Shown in pieces: positions 24,897 through 53,968 of a stretch of 64,000 bases of DNA. Where the stretch lies: contig JAFCMP010000105.1 in NCBI GenBank assembly GCA_017506865.1, forward strand, positions 124,001-188,000, written 5' to 3'. The stretch comes from Tribonema minus. Lineage: Eukaryota > Sar > Xanthophyceae > Tribonematales > Tribonemataceae. The notes beneath the pieces were generated by a model. That model was not told the origin of the DNA. It saw nothing but the letters and a program-made list of their open reading frames with translations, and made no database searches. Numbering within the stretch: position 1 is the stretch's first letter; each line of letters opens with the position of its first letter. The position numbers were made by a program, and so were the translations under genes.

Positions 24897-25238
24897 TGAA
24901 TCAGATTGACCATAAAGGACACATGCCCTAGGGTTAGGGTTTGACTGTGGATCATGTTCATGAATGAACTGTGGTCTGAGTCAGATGGATACCCTCAACT
25001 GGCATCAGTAATGGTCTCTCACTCCACAGTCTCCACACGGCTCCAAGGTCTGTGAACAAGACCGCCACCCCTGAGGAGGTTCCACCTCCGCATCATCCAG
25101 CATCGAGTGCCAAGGAGGATCGGCCTCCATCTCTGAGCCTCAAACACCACCCACTCCAGCAGGAGCTGCTAGCTATTCAGGTGTGTGTCTCCAACTCTTG
25201 ATACCTCAAGTCTGTGTGCTCACAGGACAGAGCACTCA
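24897..25238 (+). repeat. 342-bp LTR (copy A)
   Basis: It starts TGAATCAGATTG and ends GAGCACTCA (TG...CA). Two more 342-bp copies exist, 27187-27528 (-) and 53627-53968 (+). The LTR contains CCCTAGGGTTAGGGTTT and an exon-like open stretch. The sequence after it (TTTTGGCAACCAAAGAC) is where a primer-binding site would lie. The 5 bases flanking the outer pair of direct LTRs (24892-24896 and 53969-53973) do not match, so no simple target duplication is seen. Confidence 0.88.
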
Positions 25239-27186
25239 TTTTGGCAACCAAAGACAGCTGTTCCTAGCTTTCTCCTCGCTAGCGCACGCGCTACCCTGCT
25301 CCTACGCGCTCGGCTTTGTGCAAACTTCGTGATCTGGAATTCTTGAAGTTTCGCGAACCACCTTGGAGCTCCACGTTAAGTGCTCGCCACGGTGATTGCA
25401 TGAGCGTTTCGTCCGGTGGCACGGCTTCCTATCACGCGTGCATGCGCAGTGTTCAGGCTGCGCCACATGGCGGTCTTCACATCGCATTGTTCTGGAATGC
25501 AACTGCTTGCATGGCGTGGGCATCGCGTTTGCGTGTATGTATCGCCTGCTTGTACCCAACGCCGCGAGGCATTCCCACTCTGGACCTCTCTGAGGCCGGA
25601 GGCTGCCTCGAGCAGCATCACCAAATTCAATAAAGTGACGCAGAAAGAGCACTTGGTTGACCAGGGCATGCATAGCAACACCCGTTTCTTCCGGTATCTC
25701 TGCACTTTCTAGCAGCCGCTTCACTGCTGAGCAAAACGCATCTCTTTTCTGCATGGTGATGAAAGCCTCCCTGCTCAGCATGGCTGGTACTGGGACTTTA
25801 TTCTGGCTTTCCTCTCCCCCTTCTTTTGAAGGATCCCGGGCAGGCTCTGGTCTCGGGATTGTTCTTTTGCGTTTTTGAGGTGGAGAAGCATTCGCTTCGC
25901 CTGGGCCCTGATCGGCGCTGTCTGCAGAGTGCGAGCCAGTAGAAGGCTCCTGCTCAACTTCTGAATCAGCGACTTGCTCGCCTTCGGGTTGAAAGGCATG
26001 TTGCCACTCGGCATCTAGTGCATCATCGCTGGATTGGGATGCTTGGAGGATGCGTGCCTTCAAATTGGTGCAGTGTAGCTCCCATGGATCGCTGTGCTGC
26101 AAATTCAGGAATCTTTGGAGACCGGATGTGGTGACGCGCTGCGATCTAACTCTGGAGGGTCGGTAAGCACTGGAGTATCATCAAGCAGTGCATCTTCATC
26201 TTCCAGTATTTCTTGCAGCTCTTGGAAGCACTCTAACAAATCAATTTGAAATTGAAATTGACACCGGTGATGCTGAGCCAATCGCCCAAAAGGCCAGAAG
26301 GTGGGACAAGAAAGAAGCTGATTACATCATGCAGCACATCGAAGCGGTGTATGCACGTGGCCAGATAGAGCCAGCGGACGGTCCATGGGCTTGTAATCCA
26401 GTACTAGCTGTGCAGGGAGACAAGATACGCTTTTGCGTTGACTTCCGCAAGCTCAATTCTGTCACAAGGAAGGACAGCCATGGGTTGGGCAACATTGATG
26501 ACTTGCTTCAAAAAGTCCAAGAGGCAGCCATACTGTCATCAATAGACATGGCAGCAGGGTATCATCAGATTCCCCTTGCAGAAGATGCCAGAGCCAAGAC
26601 TGCATTCAGAGCACCCAATGGCTCGCTGTGGCAATACAAAGTGGCCCCATTTGGATTGGTCAATTTGCCCGCACAATTCACGCGATTCATGCACCACATA
26701 CTGGGCGCTGCCCTCGGCACCCATGTCCTGGTATATGTAGATGATGTGCTGGTATACAGCAAGGACATGGAGTCACACCTACAGCATCTAGACAATGTCC
26801 TCAAGCGAATCATTGCTGCCGGAATGAGTGTGGCAAGGCATAAGTGCCAATTGTTCAAAGCTGAGGTCAAGTTCCTAGGCCACATAGTAGGACCCGATGG
26901 TGTTCGTCCCGACCCTGAAAAGGTTCAGGCCATGAAAGGCATGAGCGCACCGCTCAAGAATGGAGTGCCAGACAAGCAGCTAGTTCAAGCTGCCTTGGGC
27001 CTCTTCAATGGTGTAAACTCTTGGTTGACCAGGGCATGCATAGCAACACCCCTGTCTTCCGGTATCTCTGCACTTTCTAGCAGCCGCTTTACTGCTGAGC
27101 AAAACGCATCTCTTTTCTGCATGGTGATGAAAGCCTCCCTGCCCAGCATGGCTGGTACTGGGACTTTATTCTGGCTTTCCTAAAAA
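25239..27186. mobile_element. Scrambled Ty3/gypsy fragments between oppositely oriented LTRs
   Basis: Reading left to right: 25239-25651 is probably element leader not found elsewhere here. 25652-26235 is the RNase H-integrase spacer in minus orientation. 26236-27010 is the RT domain in plus orientation (FCVDFRKLNS, YVDDVLVYS). 27011-27181 repeats part of the spacer in minus orientation. Both junctions around the RT piece are abrupt, so the open frame 26188-27183 is a chimera and not a gene. It is bounded by LTR A (+) and LTR B (-). The structure suggests template switching or self-integration during reverse transcription, or later rearrangement. Confidence 0.8.
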
Positions 27187-27528
27187 TGAGTGCTCTGTCC
27201 TGTGAGCACACAGACTTGAGGTATCAAGAGTTGGAGACACACACCTGAATAGCTAGCAGCTCCTGCTGGAGTGGGTGGTGTTTGAGGCTCAGAGATGGAG
27301 GCCGATACTCCTTGGCACTCGATGCTGGATGATGCGGAGGTGGAACCTCCTCAGGGGTGGCGGTCTTGTTCACAGACCTTGGAGTCGTGTGGAGACTGTG
27401 GAGTGAGAGACCATTACTGATGCCAGTTGAGGGTATCCATCTGACTCAGACCACAGTTCATTCATGAACATGATCCACAGTCAAACCCTAACCCTAGGGC
27501 ATGTGTCCTTTATGGTCAATCTGATTCA
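27187..27528 (-). repeat. 342-bp LTR (copy B), 3' LTR of the minus-strand element
   Basis: Same length and TG...CA ends as copies A and C, in minus orientation. It is directly preceded (on the minus strand) by a purine-rich tract, AGAAGGGGGAGT, the expected polypurine primer of plus-strand synthesis. Confidence 0.9.
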
Positions 27529-27769
27529 ACTCCCCCTTCTTAGAATCAGCGTCGCCCTCGACGCTGGGCATCATTGAGTGAAATTGCTTGGAGTTCTTAA
27601 CCTTACTCGTCACGTCATCGCCATTTAAACCCACTCAGGGCAGGGGTGGTGCTGTAGCCATTCTTCATCGGTGTGGAAACCGGAAAGTAAAAAGTATTTA
27701 CTAGCTACTTAAAATTATAAATAAATTGCACCTCTCAATCTTAATATGGGTCTTATGCCCTTGTTACTT

Positions 27770-28301
27770 ATGATCTTGTATTTATAGCAGCCCCAAGGTG
27801 GGCTTGATGCGTTGGATAAGAATGCAAAAAACTAAAATCGGACGGGCCCTTAGAGCCCTGCGTTGCAGGCTTGTACTAGACTCATGGGGGGCAGACACAG
27901 CGGCACCCAGTCTGAGCCACACCTATCGTAGCCGATGTCTCCATCTCTTGAGCGAAAACGCCGGAGGACCGCGGTTATGCCTCTAGTATACATTTGGGCC
28001 AGAGGCGCCCGGTCCTCGATTCCTTGCCTAAGCACGCCGCTGACGTGCCTGGCCGAGGTTCTCTTTCTTGCGTGTTCAAGCAAACGATCTACAGTGTGCC
28101 CTGATGCTATCCGTATCCCCATGTTCCAATATCCCCTGCTGCTGCCCAAAGCCGTATCCTCACCACACGCGACTCCGCAGCTCCTGCTCACAGCCAGCAT
28201 CTCCCATCCCCTTGCTGCCTGATGCACCCTCGCCACCATCAGCGCCACCGCGAGTGCTGCCGCACCTCTCGGTGCTAACGAGCAGTAGTACTCAAATGTT
28301 G
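27770..28301. mobile_element. 532-bp insertion in the 3' UTR of element 1
   Basis: Element 2 has an uninterrupted 3' UTR at the matching place. In element 1 it is split by 532 bp flanked by 9-bp direct repeats TTGTTACTT (27761-27769 and 28302-28310), a target-site duplication. No terminal inverted repeats were seen. A 132-codon minus frame inside (27850-28248) has no recognised domain. Nine-bp duplications are usual for Mutator-like elements, but without inverted ends that class is only a guess. Confidence 0.75.
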
Positions 28302-28353
28302 TTGTTACTTGTATGATATGGGCATCTCAGACCATTTGTCAAATTGCTGCAGT

Positions 28354-30024
28354 TTAGACCCTTTGCCTCTTGTTCGTGCCACTTTGTTGCACTTGGCTGA
28401 GTGACTGTGCCCTTTTGGCTGGTGTGCAGTCACCATTTGAAGCCTTGAGTCTCTTTAGTGCAGGCTGCTGTGAGTCGTTGACATCATTTGCTGTAGCATT
28501 GGCCACTTCAATATCACTAGCCTGAAAAGTGTCAGCATTGACCAACTCTGGGTCTTCAACTTCAACTTCATGGACTTCGCCAGCATTATTGCTGTCGCAA
28601 CAGAGCAGTAGGTTCCATGATGACTGTGGTCCATCGCCCTTTGGGATGTAATAGCCTGGCCGCAACTTCAACCTGCGAACCTTGCCATCAGCGAACTTCA
28701 CATCAAATGTGTGCTGCCCACTGCGGGGGTAATACTTGATCAGTTCGCCCCTGCCCCATCCCGTGGCAAAGTGGTATCTGACCACCTCACCAAGGTATTT
28801 CTCTCCAAAATCTGAGGGCATGACCGGGCTGACCAGTAACTTCAACTGTGGTCGTTTGCGTGCAGGTGTAGCTGCACCATTAAGCTCTGCTTGCCGCTTA
28901 GCCCTTTGTGTGACTGCCTCTGCCAATCTCATACCCTGCTTGAGCTGTGTTGCAGTCATTTCTTCCCAGTCACCATCTTCATAGCGCACCCGCCAATATG
29001 GGCTCATGTAGTTGCGCACTTCACCCCAGACATAGGTCAAGGTGTCACCCTGGACATCAGAAGGGTCGCGCCATTCACGCACTACTGCTGTCCCCTTTGG
29101 GAATTTCTGCAGTGCTTCTTCTTTGCGCATGTGGGAATCTTTTGATGGTGCAGGTCTGGCTGCATGTGGGGGTATGCTTCCTCCCAATCTGAGCTCATAT
29201 AGGGCATGGAAATTGTCCAATGTCCATGTGCTGACCTTCAATTCCTTCAGCATGGTGTCCTCTGAGACCCACTCAGAATTATTTCCATCACGGGAGAGCC
29301 ACTTGTAACTCCACGTGTCATCTTCTTCGAGCTTTCGGTCAACAATGCGATATATCTTGTCAGCACCTTCAAGATGTTCAAGCATTGCGGGACTCAGCTG
29401 GGCGGGTACGCCTGATGCCTCCAAATGGGCGGGGCGCAGATTGTATGGCTTCATATTCTGTACATGCCCGCGGGTGTGCTTGATTTTCCTTCCCATCATG
29501 CGGCATGTGTTAGAGAGGCCAGATCTGTCCGCTGCCGCAACCAGCTTCCATGGTCCGCTGAATTTGTCGTCCAAGGCGTCTGATCGGCCTTCTTCTCTGG
29601 GACGTCTGAGTAGGACACAATCGCCCACTGTAACTTTCAAGGCGCGTTTGACCAGCTCATTGATCTTCTTCACTCTCTCTCTGCGTCTCTCAAATGCCTT
29701 GGCTATGCACTCCTCAGCCATTTGCATGTACTCGATCCGCCTCTCAATGTCATGGTGCAAGTCAGGAGGGACTTCACCATTGTCCATGAATGCGTCATGG
29801 GGCAGATGAGCTTCACGGCCATGAACGCAGAAGAATGGTGTAAGGCCTGTCTCTTCCCTTGGGACATGTCTCAGGGCAAATTGCACAAACTCAATGCCTT
29901 CAGCCCAATACCCAGAACCGCAGTGCTTGCTTAACGCGCATATTCATGTGCTCCGCAGGGCCATTTGTCTGTGGGTGGTAGGCAGAGGTGTCGATCTTGT
30001 GTACTTTTATTATATTCCACTTGT
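28354..30024 (-). pseudogene. Element 1 integrase C-terminus, chromodomain and Tudor-like modules
   Basis: The 510-codon open part (28354-29886) begins in the integrase C-terminal half and runs through a chromodomain-like segment (IYRIVDRKLEEDDTWSYKWL, then WVSEDTML) and two Tudor-like segments (YWRVRYEDGDWEEMTATQL; GHTFDVKF-type ADGKVRRLKL). Compared with element 2 it has a short deletion just upstream (near 29910-29915, where element 2 reads CAGACCAAACACAAGAG), which breaks the frame to the integrase core. The non-LTR element at 30039 separates it from the rest of pol. See element 2 for the intact version of these domains. Confidence 0.8.
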
Positions 30025-30028
30025 GTAC
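29996..30028. repeat. 15-bp micro-insert with 9-bp target duplication (in element 1)
   Basis: TTTTATTATATTCCA (30005-30019) lies between two copies of CTTGTGTAC (29996-30004 and 30020-30028). It is the element 1 version of the micro-insert at 51660-51674 and was therefore present before the two elements separated. Confidence 0.85.
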
Positions 30029-30787
30029 CTTCATCATCGACAGCCCAACCTGCGTGTGTACAGCATGTTAGGAGGAGCCGCTGGCGGAGCGGCGGCGCGG
30101 AAGGCGAGGATGCACAGGGGACACTGAGGGCACAGCAGCACCGCACGCTCAACCTGTCAGCCTGGCTACAGCCCGAGGACTAGAGAGCGGATTTCGCTCC
30201 ACCGCGGGCCTGTGGCGAACAAGGCCAGACACGCAGCGTGGGTCGCCGGTGACAGCAAGTAAGCCTCGCATTGATTTTGCTAAAGCTACCTACGCACACA
30301 GCGACATCGGCCGAAGCACAAGAAGGGCAAACTAAACCAAAAAAAAAAAGAAAACATCAGACGATATCGCCGTCGACGGATCGGGAAGGGGGAACCTAGG
30401 GCACACTGGATCGCAGGACAGAAGATAGCAGTTCACCAGATTAAGGTTTGAACGCTTGCTGACCAGCTTGATTTGCAGCCGCACAAGGGACCTCGCCTGG
30501 CAGAGACTGACTGCATTCAGCACACGCACAGACACGACAGGATCACGACACTGCAGCGGCAAGGACACGAATTGCACAGCATTGCATTCAACCTAGCTGC
30601 CTTGTGTTGGTCAGAGGCAGAGAGCTTGAGCACACCGACTCGTTCCACCACCGCTCGTTTCACGACGGCGTGAAAAGCACCTCACCAGATACACCAGAGC
30701 AGGGTGAGATTTTGAACTGGAAGTGGTATAGCTGTGCAGGGACGAGTTCGCGGTAGGCAGCCGCGCTTTCGAGATCGAGCCTGGGCT

Positions 30788-39747: not shown

Positions 39748-42700
39748 GTACCTTCATCATCTGGCATAGGCAGCACCAGATTGCTCATGAAGTTGCTGCC
39801 TTGATCTGACACCAGTTCCTTAATCAGGCAGCCACAGTCTAGCATGACAGTCACTGTCACCAGCTGCCTTGCAGTCTCTTCTTCACCCATAGTCTTCAGC
39901 AGAAATAGCCAGACATAGCCACAAGCTCCTTCAACCACAGTGAGCAAGTACAGGAATCCTTCCTTGGACCTCTTCTTTGCATACGAGATGTCCGTGTATA
40001 GCCGCTGATATATTTTCAACGTCTGTGGTAGTGCCTGTATCGCCTTGTCTGCTGGCGTTTGCGCATTTGGCAGGCATGACAGCTACGCGCATATGTGCGG
40101 ACATCTTGTCCCCTATCAGGCCAATAACATCGCTCTGCAATCTTGATGTGGGTAGCACCCGTGCTTGGGTGTTGCACACTGGCATCATCATGTCCCAGTC
40201 TGAGCACTAATGGCCTCAAATTGAGTGGAACAACCCACTGGAGTAGCATAACGCCACACTTCGGGTAGCTAGCTGTACAGTGAACAAGCAAGCCATCCTC
40301 TTCAATGGTGTAAAACTCTTGGTTGACATGCATAGCAACACCCCTGTCTTCCGGTATCTCTGCACTTTCTAGCAGCCGCTTTACTGCTGAGCAAAACGCA
40401 TCTCTTTTCTGCATGGTGATGAAAGCCTCCCTGCTCAGCATGGCTGGTACTGGGACTTTATTCTGGCTTTCCTCTCCCCCTTCTTTTGAAGGATCCCGGG
40501 CAGGCTCTGGTCTCGGGATTGTTCTTTTGCGTTTTTGAGGTGGAGAAGCATTCGCTTCGCCTGGGCCCTGATCGGCGCTGTCTGCAGAGTGCGAGCCAGT
40601 AGAAGGCTCCTGCTCAACTTCTGAATCAGCGACTTGCTCGCCTTCGGGTTGAAAGGCATGTTGCCACTCGGCATCTAGTGCATCATCGCTGGATTGGGAT
40701 GCTTGGAGGATGCGTGCCTTCAAATTGGTGCAATGTAGCTCCCATGGAATGCTGTGCTGCAAATTCAGGAATCTTTGGAGACCGGATGTGGTGACCTCGC
40801 TGCGATCCAACTCTGGAGGGTCGGTAAGCACTGGAGTATCATCAAGCAGTGCATCTTCATCTTCAAGTGTTTCTTGCAGCTCTTGGAAGCTTAGAGTGCG
40901 CAGCTTTGCCACATAAGCTTCGGCTTGGCTGGCCACATCATTGAAATTGAAAGGGACTCCATAGCTCGAGCTCACTGCTCGGCATCGGAACGTAGCTACT
41001 TTAGCAACGTTCTTGGCATCGGCACGCTGAACCCCGAACTCGAGGTCGGACGGCATTGAATTGCAAGCTTGAATGGTTTCATTGTCCGTGGCGAAACTCA
41101 CGCCAGACAGAGGTGCAGGGGCGCTAGGCACTACTTCAGGCCATGCCTCATCTGCATGATCATGGGGTAATGGTGCATCCATCTCTGCCTGTTGGGGCAT
41201 TCGAGAAGGTGCATCAACCTGATTTTTCTTGCCAGGTCTGTGCTGGATGGTCACATCATACTCTTGAATGCGCATTGCCCATCGGAGCAATTTGCCATTA
41301 TAGTCCTGCAAGGACAATAGCCATTTCAGTGCGGAAGCGTCGGTTACCACAGTGACGGGATTGCCCCATCCATAGGGCCGAAAGTGATTGAGGGAGAGCA
41401 CTACGCCCAAGCACTCCAGGGCTGTAGCTCCCGGCTTCCTGTCTTGCACTGAATTGATCTTGCTGTAATACCCCACAACAACTTCTCGTAGCTCAGTGCC
41501 GTCTTCAAGTTTCCTTGTGCCCATTTCTGCCCATGGAACGGCTGTACTCTTGCCTTCCAATTCTGACACGGGTCTGTATTGAGTGAGTATGCCAGGTACC
41601 GCCGTCTTGGATGCGTCCGTGTGGAGCACAAATGGTAGGCTGAAATCAAGGTGCATGACAATACTGGCACTGCACATGGCTTCCTTCAAATCTTGATAGG
41701 CGTCAGCTCTGCGCTTATCCCAGACCATACGCGCGCTATCTTTGGTCAGCTCCACTAGAGGTGCTGAGCGCTGTGCAAAGTTGGGAACGTATCGCCTGTA
41801 ATGATTGAAGAGGCCCAAGGCAGCTTGAACTAGCTGCTTGTCTGGCACTCCATTCTTGAGCTGTGCTCATGCCTTTCATGGCCTGAACCTTTTCAGGGTC
41901 GGGACGAATACCATCGGGTCCTACTATGTGGCCTAGGAACTTGACCTCAGCCCTGAACAATTGGCACTTATGCCTTGCCACACTCATTCCGGCAGCAATG
42001 ATTCGCTTGAGGACATTGTCTAGATGCTGTAGGTGGGACCCCATGTCCTTGCTGTATACCAGCACATCATCTACATATACCAGGGCATGGGTGCCGAGGG
42101 CAGCGCCCAGTATGTGGTGCATGAATCGCGTGAATTGTGCGGGCAAATTGACCAATTCAAATGGGGCCACTTTGTATTGCCACAGCGAGCCATTGGGTGC
42201 TCTGAATGCAGTCTTGGCTTTGGCATCTTCTGCAAGGGGAATCTGATGATACCCTGCTGCCATGTCTATTGATGACAGTATGGCTGCCTCTTGGACTTTT
42301 TGAAGCAAGTCATCAATGTTGCCCAACCCATGGCTGTCCTTCCTTGTGACAGAATTGAGCTTGCGGAAGTCAACGCAAAAGCGTATCTTGTCTCCCTGCA
42401 CAGCTAGTACTGGATTACAAGCCCATGGACCGTCCGCTGGCTCTATCTGGCCACGTGCATACACCGCTTCAATGTGCTGCATGATGTAATCAGCTTCTTT
42501 TTTGGCCCACCTTCTGGCCTTTTGGGCGATTGGCTCAGCATCACCGGTGTCAATTTCAATTTCAAATTGATTTGTCACCCGGGGGTTCTTGGGGTCTTTT
42601 GCAATGCACTGCGGTTTGACTTGAGCATCTCCATGACTCTGTCAGCCCACAACCTTCCTTGGTCGTCCTTCTTCTGCAGCATTTTGATTGTCACACCCTT

Positions 42701-43480
42701 GGGACTTATGATTTCCCGTAATTCATCATCAGTGCACTCGCCAAGGTCCTTATTGTGCTCGTTGGCAACTGATCGTGCGTGCTCAGGCGGCTGCGACTTG
42801 CGGCTGTTGCGAGTCAAATGAGGTTGCAGTACTTCGCGTGGAGAGTCACCCCCCCTTATTTGAGCTCTGCTCATTTCCTCAATTTGGGCGTGTACTAATT
42901 GGCCCATAATGGCTTCTTCAAACTTCCCTTCAAGCCATTCCCTTATGACCTGCTGAAGGTCCATGATTTCATCTGAGGAAAGCTTGTGAATGTACCCCAG
43001 GTACGTGCCCCTCTGTATGACAATTGGGGTCGCTGTGACAGTTGTCACTTCCAGAAATGCCGTATTACTGGAGTCTGCGGTGATTATTGCCCTTGAAAAA
43101 GCGGCTCCCTGTTGCATCAGGCGCTGATAAGTCTGGGACTCATAGCCTGGGATAAATGCCGCTGAGTAAGGCGCAACTCCTTGTATAGGGGGTGTCAACC
43201 CAACTTCAACAAGTTGACGGCCTCTTGGGGGTACCACTATACTCTCAGTGGTGCGCACCGCCCGATGCTTGGGGGGCTCTGGTGCACGTTGAAGTGGTTC
43301 TTGAAGTTTGTCTCGAAATTTGGGCGGCAAGCTCGCAGCTTTAACTGCATCATGCATGTTGGCATTGCTCAGAGAGGTGTGCGGTCCATTCTTGCCTTGC
43401 GTGAGAAACTGTTGGTTCTCATAGTCAATGACTATGGACTTGCAGCATTGGTGCTGCGTAGAGTTTAGCTCTCTCATGGG
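39748..43480 (-). pseudogene. Element 1 pol: RT, RNase H and integrase core, frameshifted
   Basis: In gene order the frames are 43477-42575 (pre-RT region and RT start, beginning MRELNSTQHQ at an ATGA overlap with the protease stop), 42578-41736 (RT with FCVDFRKLNS and YVDDVLVYS), 41848-40016 (RNase H with HTDASKTA, spacer, and integrase zinc region HPSTGATHIKIAERCYWP...C..C), and 40019-39748 (integrase core with YTDI and SDQGSNF). Against element 2 there is a 1-bp loss near 42605, a 2-bp loss near 41865 and a 4-bp loss near 40035, so the polyprotein is broken in at least three places. The protease upstream is split by an insertion. Confidence 0.85.
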
Positions 43481-43489
43481 GGCACTGCA

Positions 43490-44424
43490 TTGCCTTTCTC
43501 GCCAAATGGTCGCAGAACCATATCTTCATAGTCAATTATCGACTTGTACGACCCAAAAAGTCGCTGCCCAGCAAAGCTGGTATGTCTGGTAAGTTGACCA
43601 CATAGAACTTGTGCTTGAGCAGGTGGTCACCAAACCGTACACTGGCATGTACTTTTATTATATTCCACTTGTGGCTGTGGAAATGCCATGTTGTAGGTGT
43701 GTCGCCTTGTTCTCACTCTTGGATGTAGCATGCAAAGCTTGCACGCCACACCCCGCCCCCCACATCACCCCCAACAAAGCACCCGCAAGCGACTGTCCCC
43801 CACATACTAGCAGGGATACCAAACAAAGCTACAAGACTCTCCCCCCACAGACAGACCCGTCTTAGGGCCACCCAGCTCCACGCAGACTCCATCTTAAAGT
43901 TTTCATGCAGGCCAAGGTCACCATAATGGGCCCTGAACTGGAGATTGTGGCTATCTACGTGAACCCCGATATCATAAAGATAAGCAGAGGGAGTCACTGG
44001 GCGCCAGGCGCTGACGCTAGAAAGAAAGGCTATATAACTAAGCAAAGCATCGCCTCCTTGATGAGCGGGACGGTGGTTCACCGGGCCTCCCATATCACCC
44101 CCAACCTGGCATGTACCACGCCTATTATGCTGATTTTGGCATCTGAATCTGCCAGTGCCATGAGGGTAAAATCCCCCTTCTCAAGCCGGCATATAGAACC
44201 TGGAGGCAATATTTATCAGCCTCACGCTTCGACAGAATGCTGGCTTCTGCACCGCTATCTATGAGCGTGTGCATCGTGGTTTCTTTGATGTGCCCCTTTT
44301 CAATTACGCGCAAAGCCATTTGAACATATGTGTTGCGCTTGCTAGAGCCTTGCACATGCACAGTTCGCTCTCTGATGTTGGCAATGCGACTGCGTTTACT
44401 GGGCACTGCTGTAGCCCTAACCAC
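43490..44424 (-). pseudogene. Element 1 retropepsin, split by an insertion
   Basis: The N-terminal part (44424 downward) holds the aspartic protease motif LIDSGAEASIL. The reading then shifts near 44210 relative to element 2 (which reads ADKLPPGSICRLEKGDF). Homology stops at 44105 and resumes at 43652 after a 453-bp insertion. Retropepsin cleaves the gag-pol polyprotein; this copy cannot be functional. Confidence 0.85.
43653..44105. mobile_element. 453-bp insertion in the element 1 protease
   Basis: The insertion is flanked by CTGGCATGTAC on both sides (43642-43652 and 44106-44116), a 9-11 bp target duplication. Its left end begins with the 15-bp word TTTTATTATATTCCA seen as a stand-alone micro-insert elsewhere in the window. 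No inverted ends and no recognised protein were found. A plus-strand frame (43905-44105) includes VTIMGPELEIVAIYVNPD, vaguely like an endonuclease strand, which is not enough for a call. Confidence 0.75.
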
Positions 44425-44435
44425 TCTGGCTAGGT

Positions 44436-46328
44436 CTAGCTTGGTGAGGGTTGGGTTGTCACTGGTGAAGTTGACAACTTGAACTTCTGGACTGCCCTGA
44501 CTTGTGCCCTCATTGCCTGTGGTGATGGCATGTCAACTTCAATTTGTGCCATATCCTCAACTTCACTGTCTGCAATCACCTCAATGTCGCTTGCACTGAG
44601 TGCAGTGATGCGTGGGCTTTGCTGTGATGGCCCATGCAGGATGTAATTAGAATCTGCGCCCTGGATGCTAGGTACATGCAGTATTGGCAGGCCCCTACGG
44701 TCCACATACAGTGATATCCAGTCAGGAGGGGGTGCCTCGCAATCATGCATGACAAACTCTCCGGGCCCCTCACTGCGCTTGCTTTGGACATCCAGCAGGC
44801 CACAGCTCTCAATGGCCACCAATATGTGGTAAAGGACTGCAGGCATGACCAAATCTGCCAACCATTTACGCATGTGTACCAATGACACTCCAGTTGGCAG
44901 CTCACGCTCATATGATAGTAATGCGGCGTACTGCTGCAGAGTGAGCACTGCTGCATCTTCAACTGGACCTGCATCGCCACTGCGGCGCTTATAATTTGGC
45001 TGAGGTCCGCGCGTAGGGTGTATACGCACTGGACTCCTGAACAAGCCATCCGCGCTGAATACACCTTGTTGATCAGCATTGCGCGGCTCCATATAGAATG
45101 TGTTGCAAGTGGCAGGCAGGGGGACACCAGCACGAGAAAGGTCTTCGCGGACTGATGATGGCGTGTATTGCCTTGAAAAAAGATGTATTAGAGCCCCAAA
45201 CCTCTGCATGCACTTGCGAACTTCAAAATTGTTCCTGGCCACCACAATGAAACAACGCTTTCGGGGGCACGAGCGCCCGAAATCAGTGCCTTTAGCGCTG
45301 TAAACATACGCAGTGTAGCCAAACAACTCAAGTAGAGCCCGCGCCCTGCGCCAAGCATCTGACTTGAGAACTTGCACTAAATTCTCAATCATTGTTACCC
45401 CAACCCCCGAGCGGATGATGAGCCGCGCCGTCTCCACCGTGCACTCCGCGGCGAGACCTTCAACGTGCAGCCCATCGCCTGCCCAATCTGTGCAAGGGGG
45501 GGTAGCGATCATAATGTCAGGGTCAAGCTGACGTATGGCAGATGCGACCTGGGGGTGCTGCGCAGGCAAATTGAGAATCGGCACTTCAGGATGCATGGTG
45601 TGATACATGTCACATGTCCGTGCACATTTGTCAACTGCAAGTACCGTCTCACATGCAATGTTGGCCCTTGCGGTCAACTTGCCTGCTTCTCTGGCGCCTC
45701 CCAGACCCCCGCAAAACACCTCCACCACACGCATCTTGCGCGCACTCGCACCCGGCGCCTCTGCGACAGGCGGTGGAAAGGGGATGGTGTCAGCCATGTC
45801 ATCACCACTGACTTGATCTGATTCATTAACTTCAACTGACTCATTGACTTCCTCTGAGGCCACTACGGGGCCCAACAGAGCTGCAAGCACCCGAGCACAC
45901 CTGGCCTTATACCCTTCAGGTGGTTGATCGCTGACATGCATGGTGCAATGATCAGATTCAGGCATTGCACTCTGTAGCTCTGCAGTAGCGGCAGATGAAT
46001 CTGTGCCACCACCCGATGGCCACACTGACAGAGTGTGCAGCCTAGCAGAACTCATACTTGCGTGTGATTTGGATGTCAATTCTGAGACGCACGCTTCATT
46101 GACTGCGTCCAATGCGCAAGATGATGTGTCTGACCTCACTGCGCATTTACTGTCTTGTGTATTGGCAGCCACAACTTCAATTGAACCTGAGCACTGCACA
46201 GGGGTAGACTTACATGGCTGCTGGCCGTATACGAACGCCTTGATGGCGGCGCAGGACTTGCCATCCGCCCACATCTGGATTGCGCGGTCGCACTTGTCCT
46301 CCAGACCCATGGACTTGAGGCTGGCCAC
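44436..46328 (-). CDS. Retrotransposon-encoded DNA (cytosine-5) methyltransferase
   Basis: An intact 630-codon frame between gag and protease of element 1. Residues about 200-505 carry the C5-methyltransferase motifs in order: I VVEVFCGGLGGAREAG (SAM binding), the AVDKCA acidic strand, IV DIMIATPPCTDW with the catalytic Cys at about 279, VI MIENLVQ, VIII GRSCPRKRCFIVV, IX LTLQQYAALLSYERELP and X MRKWLADLVMPAVLYHI. About 120 residues follow to the C-terminus (ITALSASDIEVIADSEVEDM). The frame is open upstream of the Met into gag-like sequence, so the natural product may be a gag-DNMT fusion made by a -1 shift near 46417. It would methylate cytosines in DNA. Retrotransposons with captured DNMT genes have been reported in dinoflagellates and a streptophyte alga, so the principle is known; target and activity here are inferred. 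This is the longest undamaged frame in element 1. Confidence 0.85.
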   Translation of the reverse strand: MASLKSMGLEDKCDRAIQMWADGKSCAAIKAFVYGQQPCKSTPVQCSGSIEVVAANTQDSKCAVRSDTSSCALDAVNEACVSELTSKSHASMSSARLHTLSVWPSGGGTDSSAATAELQSAMPESDHCTMHVSDQPPEGYKARCARVLAALLGPVVASEEVNESVEVNESDQVSGDDMADTIPFPPPVAEAPGASARKMRVVEVFCGGLGGAREAGKLTARANIACETVLAVDKCARTCDMYHTMHPEVPILNLPAQHPQVASAIRQLDPDIMIATPPCTDWAGDGLHVEGLAAECTVETARLIIRSGVGVTMIENLVQVLKSDAWRRARALLELFGYTAYVYSAKGTDFGRSCPRKRCFIVVARNNFEVRKCMQRFGALIHLFSRQYTPSSVREDLSRAGVPLPATCNTFYMEPRNADQQGVFSADGLFRSPVRIHPTRGPQPNYKRRSGDAGPVEDAAVLTLQQYAALLSYERELPTGVSLVHMRKWLADLVMPAVLYHILVAIESCGLLDVQSKRSEGPGEFVMHDCEAPPPDWISLYVDRRGLPILHVPSIQGADSNYILHGPSQQSPRITALSASDIEVIADSEVEDMAQIEVDMPSPQAMRAQVRAVQKFKLSTSPVTTQPSPS

Positions 46329-46416
46329 AAGAGCACTGGAGAGGCGATGGCTCTCCCTGCTGTCGCGCCTGTCGCGCGCCCCGGTGAGCTTGAAGATCAG
46401 ACTGCCTGCGCAAGTC

Positions 46417-47110
46417 TCGGAGTGCCTCTGCGCAGGTCTTCTGTGTCAAACGACACATCACACCCAAAACACTTAGGCTCAGCAGAGCGAGACTTGGGGC
46501 GGCGCTGGGGGGACGGCTGCCTGCCCAACGCCACCTGAGCAATGCGGGCCGGGTCGAAACCGCTTGAAGTCTTGTTGGCCTTCTTCTTGGGCCTGCCGCT
46601 GGAACTGCCTGTTGAATGCGAGTCGGCAGTATCAGTTTTGTCACCAGTACCATTGACAGGGGTGCGTGACCTCAAATATATGGGCCAGACGCCATCTGCT
46701 TTGGCGGCAATGTCTGGAAGGCTAGCGGTGCGCAAATCACATGACAGTGACACAAGACTCTTAACGTCCTCTGGCAAGCCCTGCAAAAGGGTCTGCCTCT
46801 GAACGTCCTGGTTGCCGGCAAAGCCGGACTCTCCAGCCTCTTGCACCTTGCGACACCATGCAGAGGGCATCATGCCATCTGGCCGCTTGGTAAGCGACAT
46901 GAACTCTTGAGCCCTTGCCTGGCGCTGTGCGTCATTATCATGAGTGAGTGTGAGGACTTGACGCTTTTCGGCAAAAGTCAGCTCTCTGAAGAACTAAGTG
47001 CGCCCATCTGTGCCTATGCCGGTCAGGCCCTCATACTGTTCTGGCCGTAGGCATTGAATGAATGCGACTGGCAGCATGTGCGCAGGGACCTCCTCTTGCT
47101 CTGCACGCTT
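46417..47110 (-). pseudogene. Element 1 gag remnant
   Basis: One frame reads through EVPAHMLPVAFIQCLRPEQ, has an in-frame TAG after GIGTDGRT, then continues FAEKRQVLTLTHDNDAQRQA, MPSAWCRKVQEAG and LLQGLPEDVKSLVSL (a gag-like helix motif), a Lys/Ser-rich stretch and a KCFGC cysteine pair before a TGA at about 46417. The next frame (-1) leads straight into the DNMT ORF. Gag forms the particle shell and binds RNA; assignment rests on position and general character. Confidence 0.6.
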
Positions 47111-47204
47111 AATAACCAGTCAATGCTTTGCTGGAGTAAACCAGGCTTAGTGGTGATTGGTATTTTGTCGGGCGTAAATTCGCGCAGAAAATTGCGTCTG
47201 CGAT

Positions 47205-47220
47205 CAGCAGATGCTAAGCC
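47205..47220. other. Head-to-head junction of two retrotransposon copies
   Basis: Left of here the gag region of element 1 runs on the minus strand; right of here element 2 starts abruptly on the plus strand inside the C-terminal tail of the DNMT ORF (AAGCCCACGCATCACTGCAC, also found inverted near 44600). The two arms form an inverted repeat with a 2.6-kb spacer (about 44631-47214) holding gag and the DNMT. No LTR lies at the junction. Confidence 0.8.
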
Positions 47221-47395
47221 CACGCATCACTGCACTCAGTGCAAGCGACATGGAGGTGATTGCAGACAGTGAAGTTGAGGATATGGCACAAATTGAAGTT
47301 GACATGCCATCACCACAGGCAATGAGGGCACAAGTCAGGGCAGTCCAGAAGTTCAAGTTGTCAACTTCACCAGTGACAACCCAACCCTCACCAAG

Positions 47396-47896
47396 CTAGA
47401 CCTAGCCAGAGTGGTTAGGGCTACAGCAGTGCCCAGTAAATGCAGTCGCATTGCCAACATCAGAGAGCGAACTGTGCATGTGCAAGGCTCTAGCAAGCGC
47501 AACACATATGTTCAAATGGCTTTGCGCGTAATTGAAAAGGGGCACATCAAAGAAACCACGATGCACACGCTCATAGATAGCGGTGCAGAAGCCAGCATTC
47601 TGTCGAAGCGTGAGGCTGATAAACTGCCTCCAGGCTCTATATGCCGGCTTGAGAAGGGGGATTTTACCCTCATGGAACTGGCAGATTCAGATGCCAAAAT
47701 CAGCATAATAGGCGTGGTACATGCCAGTGTACGGTTTGGTGACCACCTGCTCAAGCACAAGTTCTATGTGGTCAACTTACCAGACATACCAGCTTTGCTG
47801 GGCAGCGACTTTTTTGGGTCGAACAAGTCGATAATTGACTATGAAGATATGGTTCTGCGACCATTTGGCAAGAAAGGCAATGCAGTGCCCCCATGA
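47396..47896 (+). CDS. Element 2 retropepsin-like aspartic protease
   Basis: An open frame of about 165 codons with the catalytic LIDSGAEASIL and the second conserved strand ALLGSDFF (like the ILGxDF of Ty3 proteases). It lies in the -1 frame relative to the DNMT ORF tail, which ends in TAG at 47397-47399; sequence in this frame is open upstream (DNPTLTKLDLARVVRATAV), so it was probably made by -1 frameshifting from gag-DNMT. Its stop overlaps the ATG of the next frame (ATGA, 47893-47896). It looks intact. Confidence 0.8.
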   Translation, partial: LDLARVVRATAVPSKCSRIANIRERTVHVQGSSKRNTYVQMALRVIEKGHIKETTMHTLIDSGAEASILSKREADKLPPGSICRLEKGDFTLMELADSDAKISIIGVVHASVRFGDHLLKHKFYVVNLPDIPALLGSDFFGSNKSIIDYEDMVLRPFGKKGNAVPP

Positions 47897-50180
47897 GAGA
47901 GCTAAACTCTACGCAGCACCAATGCTGCAAGTCCATAGTCATCGACTATGAAAACCAACAGTTTCTCACGCAAGGCAAGAATGGACCGCACACCTCTCTG
48001 AGCAATGCCAACATGCATGATGCAGTTAAAGCTGCGAGCTTGCCGCCCAAATTTTGAGACAAACTTCAAGAACCACTTCAACGTGCACCAGAGCCCCCCA
48101 AGCATCGGGCGGTGCGCACCACTGAGAGTATAGTGGTACCCCCAAGAGGCCGTCAACTTGTTGAAGTTGGGTTGACACCCCCTATACAAGGAGTTGCGCC
48201 TTACTCAGCGGCATTTATCCCAGGCTATGAGTCCCAGACTTATCAGCGCCTGATGCAACAGGGAGCCGCTTTTTCAAGGGCAATAATCACCGCAGACTCC
48301 AGTAATACGGCATTTCTGGAAGTGACAACTGTCACAGCGACCCCAATTGTCATACAGAGGGGCACGTACCTGGGGTACATTCACAAGCTTTCCTCAGATG
48401 AAATCATGGACCTTCAGCAGGTCATAAGGGAATGGCTTGAAGGGAAGTTTGAAGAAGCCATTATGGGCCAATTAGTACACGCCCAAATTGAGGAAATGAG
48501 CAGAGCTCAAATAAGGGGGGGTGACTCTCCACGCGAAGTACTGCAACTTCATTTGACTCGCAACAGCCGCAAGTCGCAGCCACCTGAGCACGCACGATCA
48601 GTTGCCAACGAGCACAATAAGGACCTTGGCGAGTGCACTGATGATGAATTACGGGAAATCATAAGTCCCAAGGGTGTGACAATCAAAATGCTGCAGAAGA
48701 AGGACGACCAAGGAAGGTTGTGGGCTGACAGAGTCATGGAGATGCTCAAGTCAAACCGCAGTGCATTTGCAAAAGACCCCAAGAACCCCCGGGTGACAAA
48801 TCAATTTGAAATTGAAATTGACACCGGTGATGCTGAGCCAATCGCCCAAAAGGCCAGAAGGTGGGCCAAAAAAGAAGCTGATTACATCATGCAGCACATT
48901 GAAGCGGTGTATGCACGTGGCCAGATAGAGCCAGCGGACGGTCCATGGGCTTGTAATCCAGTACTAGTTGTGCAGGGAGACAAGATACGCTTTTGCGTTG
49001 ACTTCCGCAAGCTCAATTCTGTCACAAGGAAGGACAGCCATGGGTTGGGCAACATTGATGACTTGCTTCAAAAAGTCCAAGAGGCAGCCATACTGTCATC
49101 AATAGACATGGCAGCAGGGTATCATCAGATTCCCCTTGCAGAAGATGCCAAAGCCAAGACTGCATTCAGAGCACCCAATGGCTCGCTGTGGCAATACAAA
49201 GTGGCCCCATTTGGATTGGTCAATTTGCCCGCACAATTCACGCGATTCATGCACCACATACTGGGCGCTGCCCTCGGCACCCATGCCCTGGTATATGTAG
49301 ATGATGTGCTGGTATACAGCAAGGACATGGAGTCCCACCTACAGCATCTAGACAATGTCCTCAAGCGAATCATTGCTGCCGGAATGAGTTCGAGAAGGCA
49401 TAAGTGCCAATTGTTCAGGGCTGAGGTCAAGTTCCTAGGCCACATAGTAGGACCCAATGGTATTCGTCCCGACCCTGAAAAGGTTCAGGCCATGAAAGGC
49501 ATGAGCGCACCGCTCAAGAATGGAGTGCCAGACAAGCAGCTAGTTCAAGCTGCCTTGGGCCTCTTCAATTATTACAGGCGATACGTTCCCAACTTTGCAC
49601 AGCGCTCAGCACCTCTAGTGGAGCTGACCAAAGATAGCGCGCGTATGGTCTGGGATAAGCGCAGAGCTGACGCCTATCAAGATTTGAAGGAAGCCATGTG
49701 CAGTGCCAGTATTGTCATGCACCCTGATTTCAGCCTACCATTTGTGCTCCACACGGACGCATCCAAGACGGCGGTAGCTGGCATACTCACTCAATACAGA
49801 CCCGTGTCAGAATTGGAAGGCAAGAGTACAGCCGTTCCATGGGCAGAAATGGGCACAAGGAAACTTGAAGACGGCACTGAGCTACGAGAAGTTGTTGTGG
49901 GGTATTACAGCAAGATCAATTCAGTGCAAGACAGGAAGCTGGGAGCTACAGCCCTGGAGTGCTTGGGCGTAGTGCTCTCCCTCAATCACTTTCGGCTATA
50001 TGTATGGGGCAATCCCGTCACTGTGGTAAACCGACGCTTCCGCACTGAAATGGCTATTGTCCTTGCAGGACTATAATGGCAAATTGCTCCGATGGGCAAT
50101 GCGCATTCAAGAGTATGATGTGACCATCCAGCACAGACCTGGCAAGAAAAATCAGGTTGATGCACCTTCTCGAATGCCCC
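47893..50180 (+). pseudogene. Element 2 reverse transcriptase and RNase H
   Basis: Starting at ATG 47893 (MRELNSTQHQ) the frame meets a TGA at about 48055 where element 1 reads CGA, then stays open from there to 50076. It covers the pre-RT region (RGRQLVEVGLTPPIQG), the RT (FCVDFRKLNSVTRKD, SSIDMAAGYHQIPL, YVDDVLVYSKD, KFLGHIV) and RNase H (LHTDASKTAVAGIL, ATALECLGVVLSLNHF). One extra A near 50025-50030 (GTGGTAAACC against GTGGTAACC in element 1) shifts the frame; the RNase H end (SLQDYNGKLLRWAMRIQEYD, HRPGKKNQVDAPSR) continues in the next frame from 50057. Confidence 0.88.
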
Positions 50181-50927
50181 AACAGGCAGAGATGGATGCA
50201 CCATTACCCCATGATCATGCAGATGAGGCATGGCCTGAAGTAGTGCCTAGCACCCCTGCACCTCTGTCTGGCGTGAGTTTCGCCACGGTTAATGAAACCA
50301 TTCAAGCTTGCAATTCAATGCCGTCCGACCTCGAGTTCGGGGTTCAGCGTGCCGATGCCAAGAACGTTGCTAAAGTAGCTATGTTCCGATGCCGAGCAGT
50401 GAGCTCGAGCTATGGAGTCCCTTTCAGTTTCAATGATGTGGCCAGCCAAGCCGAAGCTTATGTGGCAAAGCTGCGCACTCTAAGCTTCCAAGAGCTGCAA
50501 GAAATACTTGAAGATGAAGATGCACTGCTTGATGATACTCCAGTGCTTACCGACCCTCCAGAGTTGGATCGCAGCGAGGTCACCACATGCGGTCTCCAAA
50601 GATTCCTGAATTTGCAGCACAGCGATCCATGGGAGCTACACTGCACCAATTTGAAGGCACGCATCCTCCAAGCATCCCAATCCAGCGATGATGCACTAGA
50701 TGCCGAGTGGCAACATGCCTTTCAACCCGAAGGCGAGCAAGTCGCTGATTCAGAAGTTGAGCAGGAGCCTTCTACTGGCTCGCACTCTGCAGACAGCGCC
50801 GATCAGGGCCCAGGCGAAGCGAATGCTTCTCCACCTCAAAAACGCAAAAGAACAATCCCGAGACCAGAGCCTGCCCGGGATCCTTCTAAAGAAGGGGGAG
50901 AGGAAAGCCAGAATAAAGTCCCAGTAC

Positions 50928-50945
50928 TTTTATTATATTCCACTC
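50928..50945. repeat. 15-bp micro-insert, element 2 only
   Basis: TTTTATTATATTCCA plus CTC stands after GTCCCAGTAC, where elements 1 and 3 read straight through (GTCCCAGTACCAGCC). The 18-bp gain keeps the frame. It occurred after elements 1 and 2 separated. Confidence 0.85.
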
Positions 50946-51641
50946 CAGCCATGCTGAGCAGGGAGGCTTTCATCACCATGCAGAAAAGAGATGCGTTTTG
51001 CTCAGCAGTAAAGCGGCTGCTAGAAAGTGCAGAGATACCGGAAGACAGGGGTGTTGCTATGCATGCCCTGGTCAACCAAGAGTTTTACACCATTGAAGAG
51101 GATGGCTTGCTTGTTCACTGTACAGCTAGCTACCCGAAGTGTGGAGTTATGCTACTCCAGTGGGTTGTTTCACTCAATTTGAGGCCATTAGTGCTCAGAC
51201 TGGGACATGATGATGCCAGTGTGCAACACCCAAGCACGGGTGCTACCCACATCAAGATTGCAGAGCGATATTATTGGCCTGGTATGGGACAAGATGTCCG
51301 CACATATGCGCGTAGCTGTTATGCCTGCCAAATGCGCAAACGCCAGCAGACAAGGCAATACAGGCAAGCACTACCACAGACGTTGAAAATATATCAGCGG
51401 CTATACACGGACATCTCGTATGCTAAGAAGAGGTCCAAGGAAGGATTCCTGTACTTACTCACTGTGGTTGAAGGAGCTTGTAGCTATGTCTGGCTATTTC
51501 TGCTGAAGACTATGGGTGAAGAAGAGACTGCAAGGCACCTGGTGACAGTGACTGTCATGCTAGACTGTGGCTGCCTGATTAAGGAACTGGTGTCAGATCA
51601 AGGCAGCAACTTCATGAGCAATCTGGTGCTGCCTATGCCAG

Positions 51642-53342
51642 ATGATGAAGGTACACAAGTGGAATATAATAAAAGTACACAAGATCGACACCTCTGCCTA
51701 CCACCCACAGACAAATGGCCCTGCGGAGCACATGAATATGCGCGTTAAGCAAGCACTGCGGTTCTGGGCAGACCAAACACAAGAGAATTGGGCTGAAGGC
51801 ATTGAGTTTGTGCAATTTGCCCTGAGACATGTCCCAAGGGAAGAGACAGGCCTTACACCATTCTTCTGCGTTCATGGCCGTGAAGCTCATCTGCCCCATG
51901 ACTCATTCATGGACAATGGTGAAGTCCCTCCTGACTTGCACCATGACATTGAGAGGCGGATCGAGTACATGCAAAGGGCTGAGGAGTGCATAGCCAAGGC
52001 ATTTGAGAGACGCAGAGAGAGAGTGAAGAAGATCAATGAGCTGGTCAAACGCGCCTTGAAAGTTACAGTGGGCGATTATGTCCTACTCAGACGTCCCAGA
52101 GAAGAAGGCCGATCAGACGCCTTGGACGACAAATTCAGCGGACCATGGAAGCTGGTTGCGGCAGCGGACAGATCTGGCCTCTCTAACACATGCCGCATGA
52201 TGGGAAGGAAAATCAAGTACACCCGCGGGCATGTACAGAATATGAAGCCATACAATCTGCGCCCCGCCCATTTGGAGGCATCAGGCGTACCCGCCCAGCT
52301 GAGTCCCGCAATGCTTGAAGATCTTGAAGGTGCTGACAAGATATATCGCATTGTTGACCGAAAGCTCGAAGAAGATGACACGTGGAGTTACAAGTGGCTC
52401 TCCCGTGATGGAAATAATGCTGAGTGGGTCTCAGAGGACACCATGCTGAAGGAATTGAAGGTCAGCACATGGACATTGGACAATTTCCATGCCCTATATG
52501 AGCTCAGATTGGGAGGAAGCATACCCCCACATGCAGCCAGACCTGCACCATCAAAAGATTCCCACATGCGCAAAGAAGAAGCACTGCAGAAATTCCCAAA
52601 GGGGACAGCAGTAGTGCGTGAATGGCGCGACCCTTCTGATGTCCAGGGTGACACCTTGACCTATGTCTGGGGTGAAGTGCGCAACTACATGAGCCCATAT
52701 TGGCGGGTGCGCTATGAAGATGGTGACTGGGAAGAAATGACTGCAACACAGCTCAAGCAGGGTATGAGATTGGCAGAGGCAGTCACACAAAGGGCTAAGC
52801 GGCAAGCAGAGCTTAATGGTGCAGCTACACCTGCACGCAAACGACCACAGTTGAAGTTACTGGTCAGCCCGGTCATGCCCTCAGATTTTGGAGAGAAATA
52901 CCTTGGTGAGGTGGTCAGATACCACTTTGCCACGGGATGGGGCAGGGGCGAACTGATCAAGTATTACCCCCGCAGTGGGCAGCACACATTTGATGTGAAG
53001 TTCGCTGATGGCAAGGTTCGCAGGTTGAAGTTGCGGCCAGGCTATTACATCCCAAAGGGCGATGGACCACAGTCATCATGGAACCTACTGCTCTGCTGCG
53101 ACAGCAATAATGCTGGCGAAGTCCATGAAGTTGAAGTTGAAGACCCAGAGTTGGTCAATGCTGACACTTTTCAGGCTAGTGATATTGAAGTGGCCAATGC
53201 TACAGCAAATGATGTCAACGACTCACAGCAGCCTGCACAAGAGAGACTCAAGGCTTCAAATGGTGACTGCACACCAGCCAAAAGGGCACAGTCACTCAGC
53301 CAAGTGCAACAAAGTGGCACGAACAAGAGGCAAAGGGTCTAA
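51642..53342 (+). CDS. Element 2 integrase C-terminus with chromodomain and two Tudor-like modules
   Basis: 566 codons, open to the stop. It holds the third catalytic acid of integrase in SAYHPQTNGPAEHMN. The GPY-type region follows (KVTVGDYVLLRRP; GPWKLV). About residues 235-300 form a chromodomain (IYRIVDRKLEEDDTWSYKWL, EWVSEDTML). Then two short modules resemble Tudor/PWWP folds: YWRVRYEDGDWEEMTATQL and, near the end, GEVVRYHFATGWGRG with FDVKFADGKVRRLKLRPGYY. Chromodomains on chromovirus integrases guide insertion to marked chromatin; the extra modules are an inference from sequence character. The reading frame is separated from the integrase core by a frameshift shared with element 1. 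Confidence 0.8.
   Translation: MMKVHKWNIIKVHKIDTSAYHPQTNGPAEHMNMRVKQALRFWADQTQENWAEGIEFVQFALRHVPREETGLTPFFCVHGREAHLPHDSFMDNGEVPPDLHHDIERRIEYMQRAEECIAKAFERRRERVKKINELVKRALKVTVGDYVLLRRPREEGRSDALDDKFSGPWKLVAAADRSGLSNTCRMMGRKIKYTRGHVQNMKPYNLRPAHLEASGVPAQLSPAMLEDLEGADKIYRIVDRKLEEDDTWSYKWLSRDGNNAEWVSEDTMLKELKVSTWTLDNFHALYELRLGGSIPPHAARPAPSKDSHMRKEEALQKFPKGTAVVREWRDPSDVQGDTLTYVWGEVRNYMSPYWRVRYEDGDWEEMTATQLKQGMRLAEAVTQRAKRQAELNGAATPARKRPQLKLLVSPVMPSDFGEKYLGEVVRYHFATGWGRGELIKYYPRSGQHTFDVKFADGKVRRLKLRPGYYIPKGDGPQSSWNLLLCCDSNNAGEVHEVEVEDPELVNADTFQASDIEVANATANDVNDSQQPAQERLKASNGDCTPAKRAQSLSQVQQSGTNKRQRV
51651..51683. repeat. 15-bp micro-insert with 9-bp target duplication (in element 2)
   Basis: TGGAATATAATAAAA (51660-51674) stands between two copies of GTACACAAG (51651-51659 and 51675-51683). 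The 24-bp gain adds eight in-frame codons in the integrase (KVHKWNIIKVHK). Confidence 0.85.
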
Positions 53343-53626
53343 ACTGCAGCAATTTGACAAATGGTCTGAGATGCCCATATCATACAAGTAACAAGGGCAT
53401 AAGACCCATATTAAGATTGAGAGGTGCAATTTATTTATAATTTTAAGTAGCTAGTAAATACTTTTTATTTTCCGGTTTCCACACCGATGAAGAATGGCTA
53501 CAGCACCACCCCTGCCCTGAGTGGGTTTAAACGGCGATGACGTGATGAGTAAGGTTAAGAACTCCAAGCAATTTCACTCAATGATGCCCAGCGTCGAGGG
53601 CGACGCTGATTCTAAGAAGGGGGAGT

Positions 53627-53968
53627 TGAATCAGATTGACCATAAAGGACACATGCCCTAGGGTTAGGGTTTGACTGTGGATCATGTTCATGAATGAACT
53701 GTGGTCTGAGTCAGATGGATACCCTCACCTGGCATCAGTAATGGTCTCTCACTCCACAGTCTCCACACAATTCCAAGGTCTGTGAACAAGACCGCCACCC
53801 CTGAGGAGGTTCCACCTCCGCATCATCCAGCATCGAGTGCCAAGGAGTATCGGCCTCCATCTCTGAGCCTCAAACACCACCCACTCCAGCAGGAGCTGCT
53901 AGCTATTCAGGTGTGTGTCTCCAACTCTTGATACCTCAAGTCTGTGTGCTCACAGGACAGAGCACTCA
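53627..53968 (+). repeat. 342-bp LTR (copy C), 3' LTR of element 2
   Basis: Starts TGAATCAG after the purine tract AAGAAGGGGGAG and ends GAGCACTCA, followed by host intron sequence (CGAGCGTGCG). Same length as copies A and B, with a few base differences (for example near 53768). Confidence 0.9.

Follow-up and report, generated by a model that had tools for sequence, protein, structure and literature searches.

Some retrotransposons are known to carry their own cytosine-5 DNA methyltransferase (DNMT). For instance, DIRS and LINE elements of Symbiodinium and Gypsy elements of Klebsormidium nitens are described as bearing DNMTs, and a retrotransposon-encoded DNMT was found to methylate CG de novo (PMC5890265). 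DAM- and DCM-encoding Ty3/Gypsy and DIRS elements have been reported from several groups, including stramenopiles, red and green algae and charophytes (PMC6338049), and some DNMT3 enzymes sit in Copia and DIRS retrotransposon structures (PMC12344493). In the excerpts available of two further articles, DNMT-bearing retroelements appear as nothing beyond a citation (PMC9998398; PMC11105155). Judged by the titles and abstract beginnings listed, the open PMC literature that was searched shows no Gypsy DNMT reported from any haptophyte, cryptophyte or comparable alga; subscription papers and preprints lie outside this scope.

Much like the element described here, KnitGypsy-Dnmt3 of K. nitens is an LTR Gypsy element with a C5-DNMT in its Pol frame, is present in several copies, and shows purifying selection on its DNMT (Ka/Ks under 0.2) (PMC5890265). 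However, its DNMT clusters with DNMT3, whereas here a grouping of one clade (clade I) with DNMT3A is rejected, though that of the whole set is not. It also has DIRS-like repeats, unlike the present elements, and the host considered here is an alga with red-type light-harvesting proteins. In this genome the DNMT occupies two slots relative to the protease; the text on K. nitens gives no exact slot within Pol, so that either clade may share the slot of KnitGypsy-Dnmt3. K. nitens is reported to have fewer copies than Symbiodinium (PMC5890265). SymbioDIRS-Dnmt3 of Symbiodinium offers a parallel in its many retroelement DNMTs and two domain orders within one genome, but it is a DIRS element with a tyrosine recombinase, in contrast to the reverse transcriptase (RT)-RNase H-integrase Gypsy elements found here. 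SymbioLINE-Dnmt carries a DNMT of no standard eukaryotic class, as the present elements may, though in a LINE without integrase, whereas integrase and LTRs are both present here (PMC5890265).

The original prediction for this locus pointed to earlier cases of DNMT capture by retrotransposons, in dinoflagellates and a streptophyte alga. This holds, and the precedent is closer than it stated, as the K. nitens elements are themselves Gypsy with the DNMT in the pol frame. What is new, as far as these texts go, is the combination of two DNMT slots in Gypsy elements, many copies, and a host with red-type light-harvesting proteins. With this genome, a further lineage joins the known cases of retrotransposons that encode a cytosine methyltransferase.

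The methyltransferase frame and its element

The window, that is, the whole stretch of DNA analysed, spans 64,000 nucleotides. The original prediction placed a C5-methyltransferase of a Ty3/Gypsy element in a 630-codon frame (44436..46328), which is the minus-strand ORF read from a GTG in a longer stop-to-stop frame (Table 1). Both coordinates and identity hold. Pfam profile PF00145 matches the frame at E 3.8e-11 (43.4 bits, cut-off 22), with profile positions 1-168 of 324, the N-terminal half, covered. The conserved domain (about 44646-45800) can be aligned with nine other retro-DNMT families from the same genome, and of the 16 columns invariant in those nine the window keeps 14, departing in a V to L change (ENV to ENL) and a P to R change. 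The columns which we take to be the motif IV Cys, motif VI Glu-Asn and motif VIII Arg-x-Arg are invariant in all 10 family representatives. With PF00145 above its cut-off and motifs I, IV, VI and VIII recovered by profile and alignment, the frame is by homology a C5-cytosine methyltransferase, and chance is excluded as the source of that homology. Protein searches from one sequence, be it the window DNMT or the DNMT region of a relative, L017, found nothing, nor did a PDB search with the window DNMT alone.

Table 1. Features of the Ty3/Gypsy copies in the window
Feature	Position	Strand	Basis
Copy A DNMT frame, 669 codons between stops	44439..46445	-	ORF list, PF00145
Codon of catalytic cysteine, motif IV (TPPC)	45492..45494	-	Sequence; Cys column invariant in 10 aligned families
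Copy A of Ty3/Gypsy element	~39748-47212	-	RT, RNase H, integrase pieces downstream of DNMT
Gag-position piece, frame differs from that of DNMT; gag by position only	46397..46990	-	ORF list
Aspartic-protease piece, third frame, downstream of DNMT	44125..44532	-	Translation, DSGA motif
Insert of ~450 bases in copy A, without counterpart in copy B	~43652-44106	-	Sequence comparison
Copy A reverse transcriptase piece	41739..42641	-	RVT_1 3.6e-27
Copy A RNase H and integrase H2C2 piece	40019..41866	-	Pfam search
Copy B, second copy of the family, facing copy A head to head; 98% identity over 3.9 kb	47213..53968	+	
Copy B reverse transcriptase and RNase H	48058..50073	+	Pfam search
Copy B integrase	50057..51748	+	H2C2 3.4e-16; rve 1e-5, below its cut-off
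Copy B integrase tail, PTM/DIR17-like Tudor match	51642..53342	+	Residues 342-373, 28.0 bits, cut-off 27.2
Polypurine tract directly before LTR, copy B	53614..53625	+	Sequence
3' LTR of copy B, 342 bases, TG...CA	53627..53968	+	Sequence comparison
Piece C, scrambled remains of window family (LTRs, RT, integrase tail)	24897..30038	.	

Downstream of the DNMT, the pol part of copy A is broken into three successive open pieces. The predicted position between gag and protease stands on the protease side, where we take DSGA to be the aspartic-protease motif; on the other side the assignment to gag is positional, and no Pfam gag match was found in the window copy or in the frames of intact relatives that were checked. 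Of the DNMT query, copy B retains no more than the final ~184 bases, and it has no gag position. The 342-base LTR recurs at 24897-25238 (+) and 27187-27528 (-), and the aligned parts of piece C are mostly 95-99% identical to copies A and B (90% in one part). Piece C has LTRs in both orientations, perhaps through self-integration. The terminal structures of the element are found piecewise, as LTR plus polypurine tract in copy B and as a 415-base direct pair at locus L106 (99.5% identical, read as a 3' LTR followed by the 5' LTR of the next element), and no single copy examined shows both LTRs.

Only one full DNMT of the window family was found, along with degenerate pieces at other loci, of which two form inverted duplicates. 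Outside the window, the RT of the family finds its nearest relative in one 85% match with a stop; the next matches are at 54-56%. The family has nearly vanished, and the window copy is one of its dead remains. Inverted head-to-head duplicates of this family are seen within the window (39748-44622 / 47213-51654) and, small and degenerate, on two other contigs (L108, 816-1245; L109, 667-1453). Such duplicates could form hairpin RNA, and an assembly artefact is possible. Elsewhere in the window lie a GC-rich frame of 2943 codons that contains 18-base tandem repeats and matches RT weakly, slightly below cut-off (30838-39669, plus strand), and a Rhomboid-domain ORF (12165-13202, minus strand).

An undamaged DNMT amid broken neighbours had raised the question of selection on this copy. 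The neighbouring frames are indeed broken, but the contrast carries little weight. Random placement of 5-7 lesions (our own count from ORF boundaries) on 7.46 kb leaves the DNMT frame intact in 0.21-0.12 of trials, and an equally long stretch remains open somewhere in 0.94-0.77. An intact frame in a dead copy is therefore in itself no evidence of selection, and no second full DNMT of the family was found with which the window copy could be compared.

Methyltransferases within Gypsy polyproteins across the genome

Two features of the window could be expected of an ordinary host DNMT gene, or of an assembly join, that came by chance to stand beside broken retroelement pieces: the DNMT lies in another frame than the gag position and the protease, and occupies the spacer within a head-to-head repeat. 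This account is extremely improbable for the locus and is refuted for the family by the many DNMTs elsewhere that share single frames with RT or are linked to RT on many contigs. Rather than the single host DNMT unlinked to gag-pol against which the original prediction had set itself, three combined searches of the genome (158 Mb in 554 contigs) located at least 191 DNMT places, or 187 without four, on C223, C181 and C523, that are apparently not retroelements. The figure of 191 combines two result sets in full with three entries of a third, whose other entries were judged overlapping. The PF00145 search by itself yielded 123 scored matches among 378 candidates, and the larger union after extra searches is at least 255 places. 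These totals are lower bounds, as only the best candidates were scored; they include pieces of broken copies, and RT presence was checked for part of the places. Open frames of at least 1000 codons hold 141 of the 191 places, and those of at least 3000 codons hold 36.

Linkage to RT is frequent. Among the 66 RT hits nearest to that of the window, 54 have a same-strand DNMT 0.9-1.7 kb upstream (44 before the results of a further DNMT search were added). A search with the RT of L026 returned 141 hits, 87 at 54-100% identity (clade II) and 54 at 32-38%. A same-strand upstream DNMT accompanies 72 of the 87 clade II hits (66 of the 72 longer ones and 6 of the 15 shortest or broken), as counted from two DNMT result sets in full and part of two others, picked by contig. 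No upstream DNMT was present in the respective result sets for 12 of the 66 and 15 of the 87. The DNMT-RT distances mostly take a few repeated values. For 52 of the 54 hits at 32-38% there was no DNMT hit within 6 kb upstream, a search in which divergent or unscored DNMTs may be missed; the two linked hits belong to one L006-type and one L013-type element. When 15 short RT pieces and three low-identity hits are set aside, the counts become 66/72 and 0/51. The distant hits suggest that Gypsy elements of this genome may be able to do without a DNMT. The 52 that have no DNMT hit, in frames of up to 3561 codons, are a possible DNMT-free comparison group; C214:55796-56641 is an example of these distant hits.

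Intact relatives reveal where the DNMT sits. L017 (clade I, to which the window belongs; 3020 aa read) encodes in one frame a DNMT (984-1131), a protease (1547-1630), RT, RNase H and integrase, with the protease and rve matches below their cut-offs. In L026 (clade II, 2758 aa) one frame holds a protease (591-682), a DNMT (853-1172), RT, RNase H, integrase and a chromodomain, with the protease, rve and chromo matches below cut-off. Thus, clade I has the DNMT before the protease and clade II has the protease before the DNMT. The clade II order recurs in L010 and L011, where a protease motif precedes the DNMT, and in the metagenome protein P0005. L027 (3177 aa) has DNMT, RT, RNase H and integrase in frame and lacks only a protease match, while L020 (2442 aa) gives DNMT, RT and RNase H matches only. 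A protease was looked for in clade III and in the L005/L007/L012 group and was not found. The one-frame order of L017 and the linkage counts support the view that the DNMT belongs to a Ty3/Gypsy element and precedes the protease, as had been predicted. The Gypsy order of RT, RNase H and integrase in one pol frame is seen in L017, L027 and L026, and in broken pieces in the window copy. Integrase H2C2 and rve are present rather than the tyrosine recombinase of SymbioDIRS, and no recombinase family appears in the Pfam tables of the window, clade I and clade II frames. At least two Gypsy lineages here carry a C5-methyltransferase as a regular component, and two slots are in use.

Near-identical element copies exist (e.g., 99.7% over 5.2 kb), which suggests recent movement. 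Several unusual arrangements were also noted. At G000:C311 3877-7788, DNMT and RT hits share a single open frame, which at 6208 codons is about double the usual length, and the RT of a DNMT-bearing element at L028 contains an exact 330-base duplication (7568-7897 and 7904-8233). L001 (390 codons) and L002 (367 codons) are single-frame methyltransferases on C223, where light-harvesting genes are found as well. The best PDB match of L001 is HhaI, and it adjoins an ORF that in our reading resembles a nucleotide kinase; L001 and L002 perhaps derive from an integrated giant virus.

Origin of the enzyme and selection upon it

The DNMT tree and the RT tree both recover clades I, II and III, with differences inside clade I; these trees used the best single-frame piece per locus with at least 180 profile positions (35 DNMT and 26 RT loci). 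Of the 8000 candidates scored in a search with the 10-family alignment, 24 proteins were retrieved, and five of these (P0001-P0005, source jgi) resemble retro-DNMTs; a search of viral contigs with P0001 found none. The L017 DNMT matched 9 phage records, at 26-31% identity among the matches listed, and the clade II alignment matched 61 loci in viral contigs at 21-39%. We read L045, the one locus of these 61 whose ORFs were inspected, as phage.

A class tree was built from 44 sequences and 175 columns, comprising 15 of the 35 loci, 13 of the 24 profile-found proteins (P0003 left out), 7 of the 61 viral-contig loci, three other loci and six references; its supports are weak, and it has one DNMT1 and one DNMT3 reference, the latter on a long branch. 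The retro-DNMTs group together with one phage enzyme inside, weakly supported. Clade I with human DNMT3A is rejected (p-AU 0.0152) and clade II (with L007 and L012) with DNMT3A is borderline (p-AU 0.0532), each against a single DNMT3 sequence, long-branched in this tree. Grouping all retro-DNMTs with DNMT3A (p-AU 0.146), DNMT1 (0.168) or DNMT2 (0.268) is not rejected. The minus-strand piece L004 1501-2088 groups with DNMT2 and is likely a host DNMT2 exon.

How often the enzyme was acquired is a sub-question of this history. One capture followed by movement of the DNMT within the polyprotein has a little under an even chance. It is favored by the three clades common to both trees and by the placement of all retro-DNMTs in one clade, which is not rejected (p-AU 0.253). 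Against it stand the slots that differ relative to the protease, the phage enzyme that falls weakly inside the group in the best tree, and the lack of a DNMT hit at 52 of the 54 more distant RT hits. A fuller scenario is more speculative, and we hold it only tentatively: two lineages may separately have taken up a C5-methyltransferase outside DNMT1, DNMT2 and DNMT3, which might be of a bacterial or a phage type. It would have entered ahead of the protease in one lineage and behind it in the other, and become a core gene beside the Tudor or chromo tails of the integrase. Such elements would combine a writer of DNA marks and a chromatin reader in one polyprotein.

Selection was estimated by the Nei-Gojobori method from pairs that share copies and so are not independent; pairs with dS at or below 0.02 or not computable, including L027 vs L020 for RT, were left out. 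For pairs between subfamilies, dN/dS of the DNMT lies at 0.07-0.28 where dS exceeds 0.3; for RT it is 0.03-0.13 in pairs with dS of at least 0.2. These low values indicate that the DNMT was kept under selection during divergence of the families, less strictly than RT. Selection on the domain, for which the original prediction had proposed a comparison of genomic copies, is thus seen as purifying between subfamilies, while among close copies DNMT dN/dS ranges from 0.12 to 1.07. Synonymous distances between the L017 group and L038-L040 disagree (0.33-0.58 for DNMT and 0.93-1.23 for RT), a hint of recombination between families.

The same data bear on whether the domain still acts as an enzyme. 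Motif IV is altered in some families, reading TSSC in L027 and TAPC in L020, as might be seen if the domain no longer methylated and had been retained for a structural role in the particle, binding DNA or SAM. We regard such a role as improbable, given dN/dS values down to 0.07 and the catalytic Cys, motif VI Glu and RxR kept throughout the 10 families.

Proposed role and host plastid

The DNMT is best explained as a domain of the Ty3/Gypsy Gag-Pol that most likely, though by no means certainly, methylates the element's own cDNA so that new copies arrive marked. The methyltransferase would be made together with the Gag-Pol product and packaged in the particle, where it would methylate cytosines of the double-stranded cDNA before or at integration. 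New copies, already marked on arrival, might then be shielded from host recognition or nucleases. Alternatively, the benefit may be that marked copies are silenced early, at low cost to the host.

The target could instead be RNA. In a PDB search with the 10-family alignment profile, the best matches are DNMT2 / tRNA C38 methyltransferases (9.4e-26), followed by HhaI (2.4e-20) and, behind it, HaeIII, DNMT1 and others. Based on these solved relatives, a DNMT2-like enzyme might act on genomic RNA or on the primer tRNA and aid priming or packaging. De Mendoza et al. considered RNA methylation for a LINE-borne enzyme inactive on DNA in yeast (PMC5890265). However, the tree does not join the retro-DNMTs with DNMT2, although their joint grouping is not rejected, and motif IV reads PPCTD in 8 of 15 representatives as against PPCQP or PSCQP in three DNMT2 enzymes. 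We consider an RNA target unlikely, if somewhat less so than a purely structural domain. Methylation of the element's own cDNA is the reading that we carry forward. Many bearing copies occur in the same genome as related RT hits that lack a DNMT hit, so the two can be compared directly; at issue is whether enzyme-bearing copies have more or earlier 5mC than relatives without the enzyme.

The original prediction also described the plastid-targeting signal of the lineage as looking red-derived, and a red-type plastid fits the comparisons of the host's light-harvesting proteins. When three such proteins were searched against the PDB, one had FCP chains as its best match. For the other two, multi-domain LHCI chains from 9vfj ranked highest, and ACPI/CAC and similar chains came next; for one of these two, chlorophyll a-b proteins also match, lower down. 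Pieces of PsaA/PsaB, 11 in all and each shorter than a plastid gene, lie scattered on contigs (e.g., C168:558775).
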